From a virus, in IMG/VR virus record IMGVR_UViG_3300023440_000009, positions 1 through 43,000 of that record: a stretch of DNA of 43,000 nt. One strand, written 5' to 3'. The translations under genes and the position numbers were made by a program. Shown here piece by piece: positions 1,548 to 33,303 of this stretch. The notes beneath the pieces are model-generated. The model was given only the letters and a program-made list of their open reading frames with translations, had not been told where the DNA came from and searched no databases. Within the stretch, counting starts at the first letter, position 1. Each line of letters begins with the position of its first letter.

Positions 1548-3131
1548 ATGGCAGAAAACACTTTCACATACGTTCTTGAACTTGATGACGGAACGGAACT
1601 CCAAATTGACGGTCCCGAAGGACTGTCTCTTGAGGACGTGGTTCAGCGTGTCGTAGCCCAGAATCCTGACGCTCTGAAACAAGTACCTAAATTAGCTAAA
1701 TATCTGCCGAAAAAAGAAGAGCCTTCCCTTGGCGAAGCTGTGTGGCAGGGAACAAAGATGTTTCCCGAAGCTGTTGGGAATATTGCCGGCTCTGTGTGGA
1801 ATGCGGTTGCCAACACAGATGCCCCGCAGCTTCCTGATGGAAGTGGTCCTGCTGGAATGCTTCCTATTCCCAAGGGCGTACTTGATATGATTGCAGCTGT
1901 TCCTGCAATTGGTGTTGGGGGACTACAAGCTCTTGTGAATAAGATCGCTGGTGTAGAGCCATCCCCAGAAACTGATTTGCGGGGAGCGTTTCATCAGTTT
2001 GCAGATCCATATCTTTCCTTATTTCAGGGAGACACTGGTCCACTAAAAGAAGCTCTTGTAGATCCTAATAGGAGCGTTGCCCTCGATGTCGCATCTATGG
2101 CCGCCCCGACTATGAACATCGTTGGCAATATTCCAAGAACTCTTGGGGTGCCCTTTGGAAAACTTGGAATGCCGATTGCTAGAAAGCTTGGTGCAAAAGC
2201 TCTTGCGCGCGGTGGAAAGTTAAATCCTGAATACGCTTCGCAGATTGTTGAGAATGCATTTTCTCTTGATCTTCCTCTTGCTGGTCCTGGTGCGCGCAAG
2301 GCTGCACGACGGGCAAAAGCAGAGTTTGGTCGCCGTATTGGCGAAGCTATTGACAGAGCAACGACAGAAGGAAAAAATGTAGACACCCGCGCATTTAAGG
2401 AGGAACTTTTGAAGAGTGCGGATGACGCTGCAAAAAGGGGTGCCCTCGAAGTTGCTGATGTAATTCGCGATGAGATGGTTCCCAGATTTGACCGGTGGCT
2501 TGTTGAGCTTTCTGGGCAAAGGGAAAAAACAAAAGTAGTTCTTCCTGAAAAGGTGTCCGTAAACGCCTTACAAGAATACAAAAAACTATTCAACAAAAGA
2601 ATTGAAGGTTTCTTCCGCAAAGAGGCTTCAGAAGCCGACCCTGTTCATGGTGATCGTGCAAGAGCGTCCGCTGTTAAGGGAGCACAACTTGCAGATGCGA
2701 TTGCTGCACAAGTACCAGAACTCCGCGTTCCAGTCCAATCTAAGGATATACCTGCAGGATTGGCTAGACCAGCTGTTCGTCCTACGCTTAATGAGGCATA
2801 TCGAACTGCGAGTGCAATCGAAAGACAAATTACAAACGCTGCAATGAGTAAGATGCAGCAGAATCCTATTCCAGTAGAGGTCATGCTACCCGGTATGATT
2901 GAGTATGCGTACCGCAGCTCTCTCGGGGTTCCCACAGCAATTGCTCTTGCCAGAGCTGCAAACAACGCAGGAGCAGGAATACTTGCACGGGCGATCAACC
3001 GTCGTGCTCGCGGACTGCATATTACCAAGAATCCGATTCTTCGCAAGTTCCTCTCTAGTACCGAGGATATGTTGACGAGAGGAGCTATCGTTCGCCAGAG
3101 TGTTCCCAGAATTCATGAGGAGAAAGAGTAA
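1548..3131 (+). CDS. Putative internal virion / DNA-transfer protein (527 aa)
   Basis: The start follows a GAGGG ribosome site and the end overlaps the next gene by one base (TAATG). The N-terminal 45 residues form a compact module (ELDDGTELQIDGPEGLSLED). Residues about 95-130 are Gly/Ala/Pro-rich and hydrophobic (LDMIAAVPAIGVGGLQALV) and could insert into a membrane. The rest is helical and Ala/Arg/Lys-rich. Small beta module, hydrophobic centre and long basic helices is typical of podovirus ejection proteins that help cross the cell envelope. I see no lytic transglycosylase or peptidase motif. It is the third large protein in a row in this part of the late operon. Confidence 0.7.
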   Translation: MAENTFTYVLELDDGTELQIDGPEGLSLEDVVQRVVAQNPDALKQVPKLAKYLPKKEEPSLGEAVWQGTKMFPEAVGNIAGSVWNAVANTDAPQLPDGSGPAGMLPIPKGVLDMIAAVPAIGVGGLQALVNKIAGVEPSPETDLRGAFHQFADPYLSLFQGDTGPLKEALVDPNRSVALDVASMAAPTMNIVGNIPRTLGVPFGKLGMPIARKLGAKALARGGKLNPEYASQIVENAFSLDLPLAGPGARKAARRAKAEFGRRIGEAIDRATTEGKNVDTRAFKEELLKSADDAAKRGALEVADVIRDEMVPRFDRWLVELSGQREKTKVVLPEKVSVNALQEYKKLFNKRIEGFFRKEASEADPVHGDRARASAVKGAQLADAIAAQVPELRVPVQSKDIPAGLARPAVRPTLNEAYRTASAIERQITNAAMSKMQQNPIPVEVMLPGMIEYAYRSSLGVPTAIALARAANNAGAGILARAINRRARGLHITKNPILRKFLSSTEDMLTRGAIVRQSVPRIHEEKE

Positions 3132-6649: not shown

Positions 6650-6949
6650 TTATTTGATGATGTAGATTACTCTAGTACTAAAAAAATCAAGTCCGTAATT
6701 AGGGTATCTTCCGATACCTAGCTGTGCCCCATTAGAGAAGTGGTTCCATTCAGTTTGGAGCACAATATTTTCTGTCAACTGGGTTCTATTACCGACGCTA
6801 ATGTGGAATTGTTCGTGTCCAGTTAGGTGTGTCTTCGGGATATTAGCTACGTAGGCTGGCCCAATGCCTACTTCTAAGCAACCAGAAAGACAAAGGGCCA
6901 GCGCAACAATCGCAACTTTAAATCCCGCAGACACCCCCTTTGCAAACAT
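6650..6949 (-). CDS. Predicted outer-membrane lipoprotein with PagL-like lipid A deacylase signature
   Basis: From the ATG at 6949 the 99-residue protein has a short signal peptide (MFAKGVSAGFKVAIVALALC) and a lipobox LSGC with the lipidated cysteine at residue 24. The mature part contains EWNHFSNGAQLG and RYPNYGLDF. The H-x-S-N motif (His70, Ser72) followed by an N-x-G resembles the active-site region of PagL-type lipid A 3-O-deacylases, which also use a Glu I cannot place with certainty. The usual family is longer (about 150-185 residues) and not lipidated, so this would be a short derivative. The N-terminus overlaps the 3' end of nrdJ by 32 bases in another frame. An alternative is a small Rz1-like lipoprotein. 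Upstream starts at 6967 and 6976 are possible. Confidence 0.55.
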   Translation of the reverse strand: MFAKGVSAGFKVAIVALALCLSGCLEVGIGPAYVANIPKTHLTGHEQFHISVGNRTQLTENIVLQTEWNHFSNGAQLGIGRYPNYGLDFFSTRVIYIIK

Positions 6950-7780
6950 TTTCTGCGGACTCTTCATAAACAGCATTCTGTTTTTTTACGGCCTCATCAT
7001 AAGGAACAGCAACAAGAGGCTGCCCACCTCGAGCACCATTAGGATATACAGTAATACCACGGAGTCTTTCGCAATAGTTTGCAAGCGTATAAGCCAATTG
7101 CTTAGCTGTGTCTTCATTATTCTCCTCCGTACCCCACTCTGGGAGATTGATTGTTGAACTAATCCCCATATCTACATACTGCTGAATGTCTGCCTGAAAT
7201 GCGATGCGCTTTTCAGGAGTTGCTGCAAGAGACATCGCTGTCTCAATGCTATCCGGAGAGAGTCCGTGTTCTTTAATAATACGCTCTGCAGTCGGGTCGA
7301 TTACGAATTGATATTTCCATCTGTTTCCGTCAAGGAATCTTCGCTTGTAGGCGACTGTATAGATTGGCTCAATTCCTGTAGTCGTTGACGCAAGGATTCC
7401 GATTGTACCCGCAGGCGCAACAGCTCTGTATTTGCGTGGGCGATTGATGTAGAATCGGTCACAATGCTCATTTGCCGCTGCTTCAGACTCTTCGGCGTAA
7501 ACTCTAAGCCATTCATGAAGCTCTGGTACGACTTCGTATCCATAACCACGCTGAAGCAACCATTCGTGGAGTCCCATGAGGCCGAGGCCGATCTTCCTGT
7601 TGCGCTCTCGTACCACCCGAACTTTCTCGTAGGGGAGGTCTCCACGCAGAGTGCCACACACAAGAAACTTAGCAGCGAGATGTACCACGTCTCTGAGCTC
7701 ATCAATTGTGGAAATATTAGCCACATTGATAGAACCAAGATTGCAAACGTCACTATCGTCCTCAGAAGTAAATTCCGTAC
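6918..7780 (-). CDS. nrdJ: Class II (B12-dependent) ribonucleotide reductase, exon 2
   Basis: This is the 3' exon of nrdJ. Joining 9351-8571 to 7780-6918 keeps the frame and gives about 547 residues. The exon starts with GT, which completes the split codon for the catalytic cysteine: exon 1 ends RNA-T and exon 2 adds GT-ACG-GAA, restoring N-A-C-T-E, the NxCxE active-site motif. Twelve residues later lies the redox cysteine in DVCNLGSIN. The motif PAGTIGILASTTTGIEP (residues about 370-385) and the C-terminal pair VCKGGVCGI, which re-reduces the active site, are typical of the family. The enzyme makes deoxyribonucleotides using adenosylcobalamin. Its 3' end overlaps the lipoprotein gene. A free-standing start at MANISTID would lack the catalytic cysteine. 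Confidence 0.9.
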
Positions 7781-8570
7781 CAAACGTTCATATGTCCTGT
7801 CATTTCTGAACAGGCCCCGTGTCACCACGGGTATCGGACTATCTCACCACCCTTTTCAGGGGCCGAACACACGACTAAGGCAGCTTATATACGAAGCTCG
7901 GTTTGACGAAAGGCTGAACACCACGTTTAAATTTCTCGTAATCCTTAGCCCGTAGTGTGAGAAACCATCTGTGGTAGTGCCTATGAATATTCCACTCAAG
8001 GTCCAGCTTATCTCTAAGTGCCTTCTTTAGTAAGAGTTGATCTCCATACGAAAGCCGTTTTAAATTGAGTTTCGCTGCGGGGGTGGCGTTACAACGTCTG
8101 TCTACATTACACGAACCATCGTCCATAAACAGAATAGCGAGCATCTCCCAATCAAGAAGTTTTAGGTAATGGGGATCTACAGACTTATAATTGCCGACAT
8201 ATAGTCTGTTACGCACTCGCGTATACATTGGATGTGTTCGTGTTAACGTACACAAAACTGGTTGCCTATTCTCTCGATGATCATTGGTCTCATAGACACG
8301 AACATGTGTAAGGTTTGAGAGAATATCCGCTCGCCACCCAATATAGTCTTCGTGTTTCGCAAGTTGGTTACACACGAAACGACAGTGCTTTCCGGAGTAA
8401 TAAACTCCACCATCTCCCATCACAAAGGCACTTACATATTTCGTCAATTCACGCTTAGTCATAGTCTCTACACCTCCCATAACGGGTTGGCACGGGATTG
8501 GGTCAGTGACCTTTCCCCGTTTTTCGTTCGGTTATTCGACGCTGATTACTCAGCGAAGGCGCATACATTT
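7781..8570 (-). ncRNA. Group I self-splicing intron in nrdJ
   Basis: A 790-base insertion interrupts the catalytic cysteine codon. Exon 1 ends with U at 8571 and the intron ends with G at 7781, as the class requires. P1: exon GCGU pairs with intron GCGC (intron positions 9-12) with U.G at the splice site, extended beyond one mismatch by GAA/UUC. P10: exon 2 GUAC pairs with intron GUAU (positions 5-8). P7: GACUAU (8466-8461) pairs with AUAGUC (7842-7837) in a context like the T4 phage introns. P9: CCCGUG, GUGA tetraloop, CACGGG (7831-7816), followed by a second hairpin CCUGU/ACAGG. The endonuclease gene lies between the two P7 strands, in the P8 loop region. Confidence 0.9.
7875..8462 (-). CDS. 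LAGLIDADG homing endonuclease inside the nrdJ intron
   Basis: The 195-residue protein has two LAGLIDADG-type helices, KYVSAFVMGDGGVYY near residue 10 and EMLAILFMDDGSCN near residue 115, each ending in the acidic residue that binds the metal. Two motifs in one chain indicate a monomeric enzyme that would cut intronless nrdJ alleles and promote copying of the intron. I start it at 8462, where ATG follows GGAGG by 10 bases; an in-frame ATG at 8480 lacks a ribosome site. The start codon lies on the 5' strand of the intron's P7 helix, so translation initiation and intron folding compete. The reading frame is intact, so the element may still be mobile. Confidence 0.88.
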   Translation of the reverse strand: MTKRELTKYVSAFVMGDGGVYYSGKHCRFVCNQLAKHEDYIGWRADILSNLTHVRVYETNDHRENRQPVLCTLTRTHPMYTRVRNRLYVGNYKSVDPHYLKLLDWEMLAILFMDDGSCNVDRRCNATPAAKLNLKRLSYGDQLLLKKALRDKLDLEWNIHRHYHRWFLTLRAKDYEKFKRGVQPFVKPSFVYKLP

Positions 8571-9351
8571 ACGCATTCCGGCAAGTCTCATATTCATTCT
8601 CAAAGAAATTGTAACAGTGTCCAGGTTCTCCTGTTTCACACATTTTTCTAACAGACTCAAACCAGAGTTCTGGAAGCTCGTGTTCATACAGGCAGCATTC
8701 AACAAATTCAGTATCCCAGTTGATACTAATATTTGTCATATCCAAAGGAGCGGGAAAATTAAAATCCTGCTCCTTTAGTTTTTTAATTTCTAGGGACCAA
8801 TCCTTGATTTTTATAAAGTCCCAAATGTCCCCATGCTGCCAATTCAAGGAAGCAAAAATTGCAGAACGGCGTGAACCCCCTTGACGTACATTGCGCCCAA
8901 TTTCATTGATGCTGCACATAAGAGGGATGGGACCAGAAGCCACCCCGCCAGTTCGTTTAAGAACGCGGCCACTTTCCCGAAGAATTGAGTAATCAACACC
9001 GATACCACCTCCAGACATCAGGCAATCAGAGGCACGTTTACAAAGATTGCCCCACTCTTCTCGAGTATCTTCCTCGGCCTTTAGCGCGAAGCAGTTATTA
9101 TAAAACTTTGCGTCGCGTCCGGCATAGTAGAGATACCGTCCACCAGGAATAAATTTCATTTGGATAATATACTGAACCAGTTGGTCTTGATCATCCTTGC
9201 TCATGAGTGGTGGCAACGTACCCCAACGTGTGCCGCAGACATCTTCGACAAGTCTACGGGCAAGAATGGGCCAGGTATCCTCTGGCCCTTGCGCATATTT
9301 AAGACGGAATACATTTTCTGCGAATGTCGTTCTAAATTGAAACTTACTCAA
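8571..9351 (-). CDS. nrdJ: Class II (B12-dependent) ribonucleotide reductase, exon 1
   Basis: This is the 5' exon (260 codons plus one base). Visible motifs are FIPGGRYLYYAGRD, NNCFAL with the redox cysteine at residue 87, the SGGGIGVDYS substrate-loop region, and RQGGSRRSAIFASL, all expected for NrdJ. It ends ETCRNA plus T, directly before the catalytic cysteine. Without splicing, translation meets a TAA two bases into the intron. No N-terminal ATP-cone is present and no second subunit gene is seen, consistent with a short monomeric class II enzyme. The start is unusual: no ATG is available, and I favour the TTG at 9351, six bases after GGGGG; TTG at 9357 is the alternative. It feeds the deoxynucleotide pool with the nearby MazG and dATP/dGTP diphosphohydrolase genes. 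Confidence 0.9.
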
Positions 9352-9365
9352 CTCCAACCCCCAAC

Positions 9366-14617: not shown

Positions 14618-15352
14618 TTAAATTTTGAGTTTCTCAACGTCTCCCCACGATAACCCAGCTTCAGCATCTCCGTCAATGGGGACATTCATCTCCCAATTAA
14701 AATATTTCTTTGCTAACTCAGGCAATTCTCTGAAATACTTTAAACAAATACGCGCAACTTTTTCAACGTGCTTCTCCTCTACATCTATTATTATACTATC
14801 ATGCACAACATTTGTCAAGTAAATTTTTTCGGAGATTCCTTTTAACTCCTTCCTGATAAAAATTAGGGCCAGTTTTGCCAAATCACATGCGGTTCCCTGT
14901 ACTGGATAATTTCGTATCTGCCTTTCTGAGTAGTCTAGATAGCCCCCTTTTTGTGGTAGTTTCTTAAATTCCCAAATTCTACCGGTAGGCCCCCGATAAA
15001 GTCCCGTTCTACGAACTTCGCGAATCCATTCTTGATGTGCCGCAGAAAGCCCAGAGTATTTTTGGAAAAATCCTGTAAGAATATTTTTCCATTTTTCCTG
15101 CGAAAAGTTGGGCATCTTGGGGTCCATATAATAACCGTACCAGCCAGTCGCAGGATCACAATAAATTGCGCGAAAGTTGAAAATCTTGGCGTTTGATCTG
15201 TTAGCGTCATTGAGTGGCAATTCCATCAAGTTGACACACGTTGCTGTATGCTGATCTACACCATCCCACAATTCCTTGATCATGATCTGATCTTGGGATA
15301 ACGCAGCAGCAACACGCCATTCTATTTGCGCAAGGTCAACATCAAGAATCAT
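14618..15352 (-). CDS. DNA polymerase family A, C-terminal catalytic fragment (split gene)
   Basis: The 244-residue protein carries the palm and fingers of a Pol I-type polymerase: motif A (LDVDLAQIEWRVAAALSQ), motif B/O-helix (RSNAKIFNFRAIYC) and motif C (NVVHDSIIIDV). It begins exactly at motif A with ATG, two codons after an in-frame stop, and needs the exonuclease-thumb fragment encoded at 15985-17169. Unusual residues: the normal F-G-x-x-Y-G of the O-helix is F-R-A-I-Y-C, motif A lacks the usual Tyr-Ser (DLAQ instead of DYSQ), and motif C has Asp-Ser instead of Asp-Glu. The two metal-binding aspartates, the Arg, Lys and Tyr of motif B, and Phe at the E. coli 762 position remain, so activity is plausible when both parts assemble. 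Confidence 0.88.
   Translation of the reverse strand: MILDVDLAQIEWRVAAALSQDQIMIKELWDGVDQHTATCVNLMELPLNDANRSNAKIFNFRAIYCDPATGWYGYYMDPKMPNFSQEKWKNILTGFFQKYSGLSAAHQEWIREVRRTGLYRGPTGRIWEFKKLPQKGGYLDYSERQIRNYPVQGTACDLAKLALIFIRKELKGISEKIYLTNVVHDSIIIDVEEKHVEKVARICLKYFRELPELAKKYFNWEMNVPIDGDAEAGLSWGDVEKLKI
14790..14818 (-). promoter_or_regulatory. Consensus sigma70 promoter inside polymerase motif C
   Basis: On the minus strand TTGACA (14818-14813), 17 bases, TATAAT (14795-14790): a full match to both hexamers. It lies within the codons for the catalytic motif VHDSIII. It would serve the genes at 14214-14606 and downstream. Confidence 0.6.
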
Positions 15353-15527
15353 CTTTTAGGAAACACTCGTTGAAATAAAATTTCCAACAGTCTTTACAGG
15401 AATGATTTTCGTTCCACGAATCATCATCACAACAAATATATGGTTCTGGCGGACAAGTACCCTCGGCTGCAAGGAAAGTACATGCAACATCCAAGGCTTT
15501 CTCCAGTTGTTCTGTTAGTGCACCCAT
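15342..15527 (-). CDS. Small Cys-rich protein inserted in split polymerase, third gene (61 aa)
   Basis: I start this at ATG 15527 (MGALTEQLEKALDVACTF), nine bases after AAGGG; ATG at 15536 is too close to that site. The product contains GTCPPEPYICCDDD and NHSCKDCWKFYFNECF, seven cysteines in 61 residues, probably a small metal-binding domain. The stop codon overlaps the start of the polymerase C-terminal gene by 11 bases, so translation of the polymerase fragment depends on this gene. It has no endonuclease motif. Confidence 0.7.
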   Translation of the reverse strand: MGALTEQLEKALDVACTFLAAEGTCPPEPYICCDDDSWNENHSCKDCWKFYFNECFLKDDS

Positions 15528-15532
15528 AACCA

Positions 15533-15757
15533 TCATCCCTTCCGAAGTTCATTCAAAAGATACTCACGAATGAGGCAACTACCACCATTCACGATCACAG
15601 CATCGTCATGTGTGCATCCACAACCACAGTAAAAACTTGGTTGCTGTGTCTTAGGACAGATTTGATATTCCTCTTCTTCCCAAAACATGCATGCATCTGT
15701 CATACAATTGTCTTTTTTAAAGATACAATATTTTCTTTCTGCTTGTCCGTACAGCAC
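15533..15757 (-). CDS. Small Cys-rich protein inserted in split polymerase, second gene (74 aa)
   Basis: The start is GTG at 15757, about seven bases after AAAGGGG. The 74-residue product has about ten cysteines, including YCIFKKDNCMTDACMFW and PSFYCGCGCTHDD, suggesting one or two bound metals. It is followed without a gap by the next small gene. The cluster of three such genes separates the two polymerase fragments. No known family or homing endonuclease signature is seen. Confidence 0.72.
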   Translation of the reverse strand: MLYGQAERKYCIFKKDNCMTDACMFWEEEEYQICPKTQQPSFYCGCGCTHDDAVIVNGGSCLIREYLLNELRKG

Positions 15758-15769
15758 TCCAAACCCCTT

Positions 15770-15949
15770 TCAAAAATGCTCCTCATCTTCATCGGTTGCT
15801 GCCCAGTATACTTTGCCCATAAACCCTATTCGCTCAAACTCGGTCAAATACCCATCTACCGTTGTCTCTGGAGGAGCTTTGCACCTTGGGCATCGAGCAC
15901 ATTTCTTTTTTGTGTTCGGCTTACAGGGCTGGCAAAACTCGAACGCCAT
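15770..15949 (-). CDS. Small Cys-rich protein inserted in split polymerase, first gene (59 aa)
   Basis: This 59-residue product begins MAFEFCQPCKPNTKKKC and continues ARCPRCKAPPETTVDGY, with three CxxC-type knuckles in the first 25 residues, then an acidic tail (AATDEDEEHF). It starts 35 bases after the stop of the polymerase N-terminal gene. The ribosome site is the weak GGGGAGAC. It is the first of three tiny Cys-rich genes between the polymerase halves. Confidence 0.68.
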   Translation of the reverse strand: MAFEFCQPCKPNTKKKCARCPRCKAPPETTVDGYLTEFERIGFMGKVYWAATDEDEEHF

Positions 15950-15984
15950 CTAGTTTGTCTCCCCACTACAAATTATTTCCCGAA

Positions 15985-17169
15985 CTACTGCAGGCATGTA
16001 TTGCGCGCCTCTGCAAATCGAGTCACAAAACACTTTTTTACTGGACCTGTATTTCCTCTTGGGATGTTCTGACCATTCGGATTCGACGAACTAAACCGAG
16101 ATGTCGCAGTTACAGTGTTATTGATAGTTGGATGAATTACCCCATCAATCTGACGTTCGTACAATCCAATGAAATACATAGATAGAAGCTGACTCATTCT
16201 ACTACGCTCATACAGCAATTCAACAACACGCTTCTGCACCTTTGTCTTTGGCTTTAGCAGAGAGAGTGCCTGCACATTTGTTTCGTAAATCCCCGCATGT
16301 TTAGTTTCACTAATCCCTAATCTTTTAGGATCAAAGCCAATTCCTTTGACAAGCTTGTCTACTTTACACTTTCGCGTATAGGTTTTCACCTCCCCGCTTT
16401 TTAGTGTGCGAGTATACTCTTCAACTCCATCAACCTTGTAGGTGCCGCCGAACAATCCGCAAGAAAGCTGCTGTGCAGACCCTGGATTTTCAATACCAAG
16501 CAGTTCGGAAAGCTCTTTGTCAATTTCTTCTAGAGTCCTACTATACTCATCTTTATAAGAGCACAAAGTCTCCAAATCAAGAGCCATTCCATTATATTCC
16601 ATTGCAGCGATAGCAGGAATAACAGCCATGTCAAGCGAGATAGGAGTTTCAAGTTGCTGTTCTTTGATACTTTTTACTTGGCGTTTGAAAATTTCGAGGC
16701 AGAGCACCGTGTCTTTGACGACATACTCAAGCAGAATATCCAAAGGAATATCTGGAGTATCAATACCTTTGTTCCAGAATTCTGCAACACGGTCATCTTT
16801 CTGCCCCAATCCGTATTGCTCAGCGAGCGCATTGAGGGACAATCCATCAAGGCGCTGATGGTGTCGGATCACATATTCTGCAGTCTGCGTACAAAACAGA
16901 AGTTTATTATCAATGTCAATCCCAAGATGATGTAACCACATATAATCAAACTTGAGATTGTGTGCAATAATCCGATCCGCTTTTTTTAGGACTTCCTCGA
17001 ATCGATACAACTCCTCTCGAAAAGATTTGTAGCTATCTTTGTGATAAAAGACAAAAGTATCAGAGTGCCCAGTATCAGTTACCACAGCAGCGCACACTGC
17101 CTGTGAATCGGGAATATATGGAAGGTGTTTAGGGTCTTTTGTGGTCTCAAAGTCAACTGCGATATTCAC
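15985..17169 (-). CDS. DNA polymerase family A, exonuclease and thumb fragment (split gene)
   Basis: The 394-residue protein has the 3'-5' proofreading motifs IAVDFETTKDPK (Asp/Glu), RIIAHNLKFDYMWLHHLG and LEYVVKDTVLCLEIF, then the thumb and first part of the polymerase domain, including TATSRFSSSNPNGQNIPRG. It stops after KKCFVTRF plus nine unrelated residues (AEARNTCLQ), just before where motif A should follow. Comparison with E. coli Pol I suggests only about four residues are missing between this end and the C-terminal fragment. The start is GTG at 17169, overlapping the helicase stop (TAGTG). Three Cys-rich genes separate the two fragments; no group I intron pairing is visible, so two proteins that associate is the simplest reading. 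Confidence 0.88.
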   Translation of the reverse strand: MNIAVDFETTKDPKHLPYIPDSQAVCAAVVTDTGHSDTFVFYHKDSYKSFREELYRFEEVLKKADRIIAHNLKFDYMWLHHLGIDIDNKLLFCTQTAEYVIRHHQRLDGLSLNALAEQYGLGQKDDRVAEFWNKGIDTPDIPLDILLEYVVKDTVLCLEIFKRQVKSIKEQQLETPISLDMAVIPAIAAMEYNGMALDLETLCSYKDEYSRTLEEIDKELSELLGIENPGSAQQLSCGLFGGTYKVDGVEEYTRTLKSGEVKTYTRKCKVDKLVKGIGFDPKRLGISETKHAGIYETNVQALSLLKPKTKVQKRVVELLYERSRMSQLLSMYFIGLYERQIDGVIHPTINNTVTATSRFSSSNPNGQNIPRGNTGPVKKCFVTRFAEARNTCLQ

Positions 17170-31761: not shown

Positions 31762-33303
31762 ATGATTGACTTTGAGCCGAGAAAAGATTGTAAATACAAA
31801 TACAATTATGAGGCCATCTTTCGGGATGTGGCAAATAGCGAAATCCCAATAGAAGCGGCAGTTCGTAACCTGTGCCTAAATGATTTGTTTTTCATTGTCT
31901 ATTTCATCATGGAAATCCCTCCCGCAAACCACCCATTTGTGGTGGATATGTGTCGTACCGTGGAGGAAGGTCCAAAAACAAAAACGCTGGATATCTGGGC
32001 ACGTGAGCACTTTAAGTCTACGATTATTACGATGGCGGAGACTGTCCAAGCGATTCTCCGTAATCCAGAGTGTACGACTGCGATCTTTTCGTTTAAGAAG
32101 CCGGCCGCCACTAAATTCCTAGACGGGATTCGGAAAACCCTTGAGAAACCGATTCTTGTTCAGGCATTTCCTGATATTCTGTACGAGAAACCCGATACAC
32201 AAGCCCCTGTGTGGTCATTAGAAAATGGGATTCGAGTTAAACGAAACAGTGTATCCCGTAAAGAGAATACAGTAGAGGCTTTTGGTCTTGTTGAGGGGAT
32301 GCCTACCGGCGGCCACTTCGATCGTCGAATCTATGATGATATTGAGACAGCTGACTTGGCAAAGAATATTGAGCAGCTGGATCAGTGTTTTTCTCAGTTT
32401 GAGTATTCAAGTTATCTTGGAACAGATGGTGGTATTGAACGGGTGATTGGGACATATTACCATCATGCTGGGCCGTTGAAGAGAATCCAGGATAAGAAAA
32501 CAGTACATGGTACGCCCATGTACTACACAAGAATTATTCCTGGTTCTGATGATGGAACAAAAGACGGAAAACCTGTTCTCGTTAGTCAGGAGCGGTGGGA
32601 AGAGCTGAAGGTTGGTGAACACTTTAATCAACAGATTCTCTGTGACCCAACCCCCGCAACAGATAGATCACTGCCGGCAGACCAACTGATTGAGATGCCT
32701 CCTGAGGAACTTCCGCAGGATATTTTGAAGTTTATGTTGGTCGATCCTGCTGGCGACCAGGCAACCCAGTCTGGAGATGATGCGTGGGCACTCGGGGTGG
32801 TTGGTGTTTCTCCACACGCAGATGATGCAGGTGCGAGCGACGTCTATATTCTTGATCTCGAAATTCGCCCCATGACCCACGCAGAAGCCATTGACGAGAT
32901 TGCACGTATGTATCTTCGCAATGGTGTTGTTATGGCGCTTGGCGTGGAGAAGGTTGGCCAGAGTACGGCAGAGATTCATATCGCAAATGCACTACGTGCC
33001 TATAATCGTCATTTGTCTATTGATGCTGGGACACTTCGGATCTTGTCCCCCAAAGGGAGAAACAAAGTTGATCGGATTGTTCAGGCACTGCAGTGGCCGC
33101 TGAACAATGGAAAAATCCATTATCTAAGTACGCTAAAACCAGAAGCTATTAATCGTCTCAAACAGGAAATGGACATGTTCCCTGTTTGGCATGATGATGG
33201 CCTGGATATGTTGGCGTACCTGTACGATATTATCAAAGACTATCGGTTTGCAAGAACTCGAAAGTTGGAACCGCTTCCTTATGCTAATACAGGGGTTGTT
33301 TAA
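31762..33303 (+). CDS. Terminase large subunit
   Basis: The 513-residue motor has an N-terminal ATPase with a variant Walker A, LDIWAREHFKSTIITM (residues 77-91), and Walker B RRIYDDIETADLA (188-200). The C-terminal RNase H-like nuclease shows KFMLVDPAGDQATQSGDDAW (Asp328), MALGVEKVGQSTAEI (Glu396) and DMFPVWHDDGLDMLAYLYD (third acidic group). It drives DNA into the prohead and cuts the concatemer. The start follows the methyltransferase stop directly, and its own stop overlaps the portal start (TAATG). The circularly permuted look of the genome would agree with headful cutting. Confidence 0.93.
   Translation: MIDFEPRKDCKYKYNYEAIFRDVANSEIPIEAAVRNLCLNDLFFIVYFIMEIPPANHPFVVDMCRTVEEGPKTKTLDIWAREHFKSTIITMAETVQAILRNPECTTAIFSFKKPAATKFLDGIRKTLEKPILVQAFPDILYEKPDTQAPVWSLENGIRVKRNSVSRKENTVEAFGLVEGMPTGGHFDRRIYDDIETADLAKNIEQLDQCFSQFEYSSYLGTDGGIERVIGTYYHHAGPLKRIQDKKTVHGTPMYYTRIIPGSDDGTKDGKPVLVSQERWEELKVGEHFNQQILCDPTPATDRSLPADQLIEMPPEELPQDILKFMLVDPAGDQATQSGDDAWALGVVGVSPHADDAGASDVYILDLEIRPMTHAEAIDEIARMYLRNGVVMALGVEKVGQSTAEIHIANALRAYNRHLSIDAGTLRILSPKGRNKVDRIVQALQWPLNNGKIHYLSTLKPEAINRLKQEMDMFPVWHDDGLDMLAYLYDIIKDYRFARTRKLEPLPYANTGVV

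Follow-up and report, generated by a model that had tools for sequence, protein, structure and literature searches.

The viral DNA analysed here, referred to as the window, is a stretch of 43,000 nucleotides (positions 1 to 43,000 of IMG/VR record IMGVR_UViG_3300023440_000009). Two open frames on its minus strand, 9357-8569 and 7724-6918, are both parts of a ribonucleotide reductase, and between them lies an insertion that harbors a gene of its own:

8571..9357, minus strand: nrdJ 5' exon, with a TTG start, ending in ...AAT GCG T and contiguous with homologues
7781..8570, minus strand: predicted group I intron of 790 nt, the first two bases of which complete an in-frame UAA
8559..8574, minus strand: P1, formed by exon GCGU (8574-8571) and internal guide sequence GCGC (8562-8559), with U.G at the splice site; covaries in 19 introns
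8540..8555, minus strand: P2 hairpin CGCUGA-GUAA-UCAGCG; all 6 pairs covary among 14 relatives
8526..8531, minus strand: P3 5' strand CCGAAC; covaries with 7868-7863 in 19 introns
8463..8520, minus strand: P4-P5-P6-P6a and the P7 5' strand (GACU-A), placed by covariation and the family model
8471..8478, minus strand: likely ribosome-binding site GGGAGGUG of the endonuclease gene, within P6a/P6; read directly, its function being putative
8454..8462, minus strand: P7.1 5' strand AUGACUAAG, comprising the endonuclease start codon and the next two codons; 9 bp with 7879-7871
7875..8462, minus strand: LAGLIDADG homing endonuclease gene, 195 aa (LAGLIDADG_2, I-SceI relatives, dN much below dS)
7871..7879, minus strand: P7.1 3' strand CUUAGUCGU, in which the endonuclease stop codon lies
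7863..7868, minus strand: P3 3' strand GUUCGG, placed by covariation with the P3 5' strand
7850..7862, minus strand: P8 hairpin, read directly
7837..7841, minus strand: P7 3' strand UAGUC, placed by the RF00028 alignment and relatives
7816..7831, minus strand: P9 hairpin CCCGUG-GUGA-CACGGG; covaries
7796..7814, minus strand: second P9-region hairpin with a conserved CAGAAAUG loop, from comparison with relatives
6918..7780, minus strand: nrdJ 3' exon, from the GT of the cysteine codon to the stop at 6918-6920

Excision of positions 7781-8570 (790 nt) yields a single open frame of 549 codons from the TTG at 9357. The original prediction of a restored frame therefore holds, its count of 547 residues corresponding to a TTG two codons further on. 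The joined exons read ...CGG AAT GCG T|GT ACG GAA TTT..., translated as R N A C T E F, with the cysteine codon split as T|GT. In the alignment to NrdJ that had been proposed as a check, all 80 of the best IMG/VR homologues (54-65% identity) cross the junction as NAC(T/A/C)E, none of them carrying additional residues at the site of the insertion, and the reductases of the isolated roseophages CRP-3 and CRP-212 are likewise uninterrupted at this point. The split cysteine aligns with that of the NPCGE motif in the B12-dependent reductase of Thermotoga maritima; the claim that the insertion divides the codon of the thiyl-radical cysteine is thus borne out. The last base of the 5' exon is U and that of the intron is G, as in group I introns. 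An in-frame stop lies 0-9 codons past the 5' splice site in all 19 introns compared, the window having an immediate UAA; such early stops are a common guard against ribosome entry into the intron.

The reductase itself is class II-like. It matches NrdJ_Z (E 1e-62) better than NrdE_NrdA (6e-40), both matches lying under the model cut-offs, and it reaches the curated cut-off of none of the NCBIfam models; its best structure match is the T. maritima NrdJ. A small subunit (PF00268) was not found in the record searched, which may be a fragment. As read from the DNA, the predicted 790-nt intron splits the catalytic-cysteine codon of this gene.

Assignment of the element to group I relies on comparison within its own family. 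The general covariance model RF00028 matches 8580-7815 at 27.2 bits, with an E-value of 1.2e-4 when the search is limited to the region, and reports nothing when the whole window is searched. This score is below the gathering score of 50, which is a curator's cut-off and not a defining biochemical feature. The low value is explained by the endonuclease gene lying between P7 and the P3 3' strand: the alignment sets the P3 3' strand and P8 within that gene, for which reason RF00028 was dropped as sole judge. A family covariance model was instead built from the 5' half of the core of 14 relatives, excluding the window, and this model recovers the window with a score of 105.5 bits and E 1.1e-27, whereas its second-best match is at chance level. 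Among the same 14 relatives 97.5% of cells are paired in the model structure, compared with 36-49% in slid controls, and 14 of the 20 model pairs have changed on both sides somewhere. A sub-threshold RF00028 score had been listed in advance as counting against an intron, and literally that is what was obtained; the objection fails because the family model reaches 105 bits and the homologues have no residues in the gap.

The long-range helices were examined in 19 introns by comparing the pairing of each 5' strand with its own 3' strand and with those of the other introns, using 5000 permutations. Own pairing exceeded cross pairing in P1 (100% vs 68%), P3 (98% vs 63%), P4 (99% vs 78%), P6a (100% vs 80%) and P9 (99% vs 60%), and for none of the five was it matched in 5000 permutations, these counts not being probabilities, since they ignore kinship and related sequences inflate them. 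P7 is nearly invariant (GACUA/UAGUC in 18 of 19 introns). P1 is the most telling helix because it pairs exon with intron, and here exon and guide change together (GCGU/GCGC, CCGU/GCGG, GUGU/GCAC, CCCU/GGGG, GCCU/GGGC). The P1 with its U.G pair, the P7 and the P9 with a GUGA loop, all invoked in the original prediction in support of the splice sites, are present; the P10 it also cited is short, of about 4 bp (GUAC/GUAU), and was given no weight in the identification. Placement in subgroup IA, a feature of which is P7.1 (and P7.2) between P7 and P3, is tentative: P7.1 is supported, and P2 is also present.

The product of the internal gene, which has a second in-frame ATG at 8480, matches Pfam LAGLIDADG_2 (E 4.9e-23) and resembles I-SceI relatives (E 1e-5), I-SceI being the nearest solved enzyme. 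Both acidic motifs, FVMGDGG and LFMDDGS, are in place, as in the two-motif, monomeric LAGLIDADG endonucleases, and D17 and D115 do not vary among 9 relatives, which confirms that a LAGLIDADG enzyme is encoded within the nrdJ intron. Between the endonucleases of two related introns (L131 and L133) dN is 0.16 and dS 1.9, and between those of the window and L096 pN is 0.22 and pS 0.78; non-synonymous values so far under the synonymous ones indicate purifying selection.

Several other readings of the locus have been weighed. The endonuclease gene could have broken nrdJ into two pieces that are expressed without splicing and assemble as separate chains, as the split reductase chains of Aeromonas phage Aeh1 (nrdA/mobE) reportedly do; both exons are open and the insertion gives exon 1 an immediate stop. 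Nevertheless, on either side of the endonuclease gene lies a complete group I core with covarying helices, exon and guide covary, and the cut falls within the catalytic codon, so that the cysteine is not encoded in frame by either chain on its own. This reading was rejected on account of the full core, and is extremely unlikely. It is very unlikely that the intron has decayed, no longer splices and leaves nrdJ as a remnant: although its 3'-terminal segment GAACGUUUG departs from the GUAACAA-NG ending usual in the family, the core helices are all intact, the frames of both exons and of the endonuclease are open, and purifying selection acts on the endonuclease. An intein might be suspected at a cysteine that is occupied by inteins in the NrdE of SPbeta and phage A9, but the exon 1 frame runs into a UAA at once and the endonuclease gene has a start codon of its own, and the intein was discarded on these reading frames. 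The same frames speak against an assembly or frameshift artefact, as does the recurrence of the arrangement in independent contigs, and the chance of either is close to negligible. The element is therefore very probably what the original prediction held, a group I intron, and from its sequence a mobile one that carries a LAGLIDADG gene.

Within the intron, the endonuclease gene occupies the space between P7 and P3. Its start codon follows P7 directly (GACU-AUG), and the P7.1 helix that contains this codon is 93% paired in its own register over 19 introns, compared with 71% cross-sequence and 35-48% in slid registers. Since the start codon lies in P7.1 and the ribosome-binding-like GGGAGGUG in P6a/P6, folding may hide the translation start, which suggests that ribozyme folding and endonuclease translation would be mutually exclusive; the folded ribozyme would conceal the start codon and the endonuclease would be made only from unfolded or unspliced RNA. 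The pairing of the start codon (U.G, G-C) could instead be kept for the ribozyme alone. Whether the ribozyme core acts as a translation switch, by which the RNA would either splice or make endonuclease, common to the family on the catalytic cysteine codon of both reductase classes, is a tentative proposal that we consider somewhat more doubtful than not. Endonuclease genes located in P6a, P8 and P1, and their overlap with core sequence, are listed in a review (PMC3073962), so that the overlap as such was already known; a description of the P7.1/start-codon arrangement was not found in the literature examined.

Relatives were searched by intron core sequence without exons, using patterns taken from known members. 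At least 24 phage or viral introns share the core and a related LAGLIDADG gene, 24 being included in the endonuclease tree (the window among them), counts that say nothing of true abundance because the patterns were built from known members. Sixteen of the 24 lie in or beside the same cysteine codon, 15 in class II reductases and one in the class I nrdA of Pseudomonas phage SPA01. The class II cases comprise three with NAC (the window, L096 and L130, all of the same nrdJ lineage) and twelve with NPC (L085, L131, L132, L133, L137, L138, L139, L141, L143, L144, L147 and L148), a further class II case, L091, being truncated. The insertion is at T|GY, one base upstream in L139, and the joined proteins read on wherever both exons are present, L144 being cut off at the 3' end. 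L148 comes from a bacterial MAG contig where the neighboring genes look like a phage replication module. The NPC relatives differ from the window in belonging to other reductase lineages and in their diverged endonucleases. The remaining members of the tree are found in nrdB (two, FBPa8 and L142), at the GEP site of reductases (two, L094 and L145), in a major capsid gene (three) and in a capsid-like gene (one, L095). Of the capsid cases, L087 and L089 are at GDA-L, L140 is in the same major capsid gene and L095 in another, capsid-like gene. Six further candidates (L090, L092, L093 and L134-L136) were dropped as apparent chance hits to the pattern. The tree clusters by site with five site changes, the minimum, the shuffled mean being 8.8, and this fits site-specific homing. 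Of 80 intron-less relatives, 6 have GCG ahead of the cysteine codon; in the intron-bearing T|GY cases this preceding codon is nearly always NCG, which matches the guide sequence. The remark in the original prediction that such an intron is less common in phages thus undersells the family, members of which occupy this codon in many phage reductases of class II and in many unrelated phages.

The introns of Pseudomonas phages FBPa8, HHBS10_2 and SPA01 share the core of the window intron (82% identity over 79 nt with FBPa8), and their LAGLIDADG proteins are 46-47% identical to that of the window; existing annotation shows nothing there beyond hypothetical genes or homing endonuclease genes. Those of FBPa8 and HHBS10_2 sit in nrdB at VHAP(T|TC), unlike the nrdJ intron of the window, and that of SPA01 follows a complete nrdA cysteine codon (TGT|CAA), whereas in the window the codon is split. 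SPA01 (OP875100.2) has two further group I intron matches, at 32142-32983 and 57260-58014, both below the cut-off. The 18.8-kb viral contig IMGVR_UViG_3300028894_000029 (G001, with L085 and L104-L106) shows five RF00028 matches, three over the cut-off. In the window, the family A DNA polymerase gene (14621-17169, minus strand) is likewise interrupted, some 4 residues ahead of motif A, its parts corresponding to phrog_17 positions 673-1003 and 1008-1235. The insertion of about 630 nt contains three short ORFs, of which the third overlaps the beginning of the C-terminal part; RF00028 and family-model searches of the window detected no intron there.

Other elements also occupy the catalytic cysteine. 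Listeria phage A511 nrdA (gp123/gp124) has an ORF-less group I intron right after the catalytic TGT (48 bits with RF00028 and 37 bits with R1), at A511 88589-88920 (L126 1590-1921); it is related to the intron of the window but has no endonuclease gene and lies in a class I reductase. The A511 nrdA split, earlier read as traces of an intein (PMC3653736), is explained by this intron, which belongs to group I and lies within the catalytic cysteine motif, and not by an intein remnant. In L097, a related intron with a GIY-YIG-like gene, the family being judged by eye from YTVYKIEC...GRCYFG, lies right after the cysteine codon. In L094, around 2154-2257 (minus strand) and downstream, one class II phage reductase gene contains two group I-like introns. 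One is at GEP| and has a LAGLIDADG gene; the other, of a different type and without an ORF, interrupts the cysteine codon. The NrdE inteins of SPbeta and Brochothrix phage A9 begin exactly at the catalytic cysteine (SNL|C), the site of the window intron, but rely on protein splicing with no ribozyme. Twort nrdE has no intron at the cysteine, the Twort and SPbeta sites having been read directly from sequence. The catalytic codon is thus a meeting point of unrelated elements. The group I introns with a homing endonuclease in T4 td, nrdB and nrdD, Twort nrdE and yeast omega (I-SceI) are in other genes or at other sites than that of the window. In phages, group I intron endonucleases more often belong to other families, such as HNH or GIY-YIG (PMC3984707). 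Introns and inteins are known to favor conserved sites (PMC2814812), and the placement is therefore expected in kind; what is new here is the breadth of the occupied site across reductase classes.

From the anatomy of the locus and from established knowledge of these families, we infer splicing, cleavage and homing. In infected cells the intron would excise itself in two guanosine-initiated steps, rejoining U|GU and restoring the thiyl-radical cysteine, with a predicted joined-exon product that reads ...AAUGCGUGUACGG. The LAGLIDADG enzyme would cut intron-less nrdJ where the gene encodes the conserved N-x-C-x-E, and the intron would be copied in during repair of the cut allele. Residence in a catalytic codon may be a persistence strategy, as a mutated target or imprecise loss of the intron would cost the host the enzyme. 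The start codon's place inside a ribozyme helix offers a simple, testable model for the balance between splicing and endonuclease expression. Taken together, these data describe a little-described phage intron family found repeatedly at the codon of the radical-carrying cysteine, in class I and class II reductases and at a site also taken by inteins, and provide a clear example from nature of convergence by selfish elements on a target that the host is hardly able to mutate.
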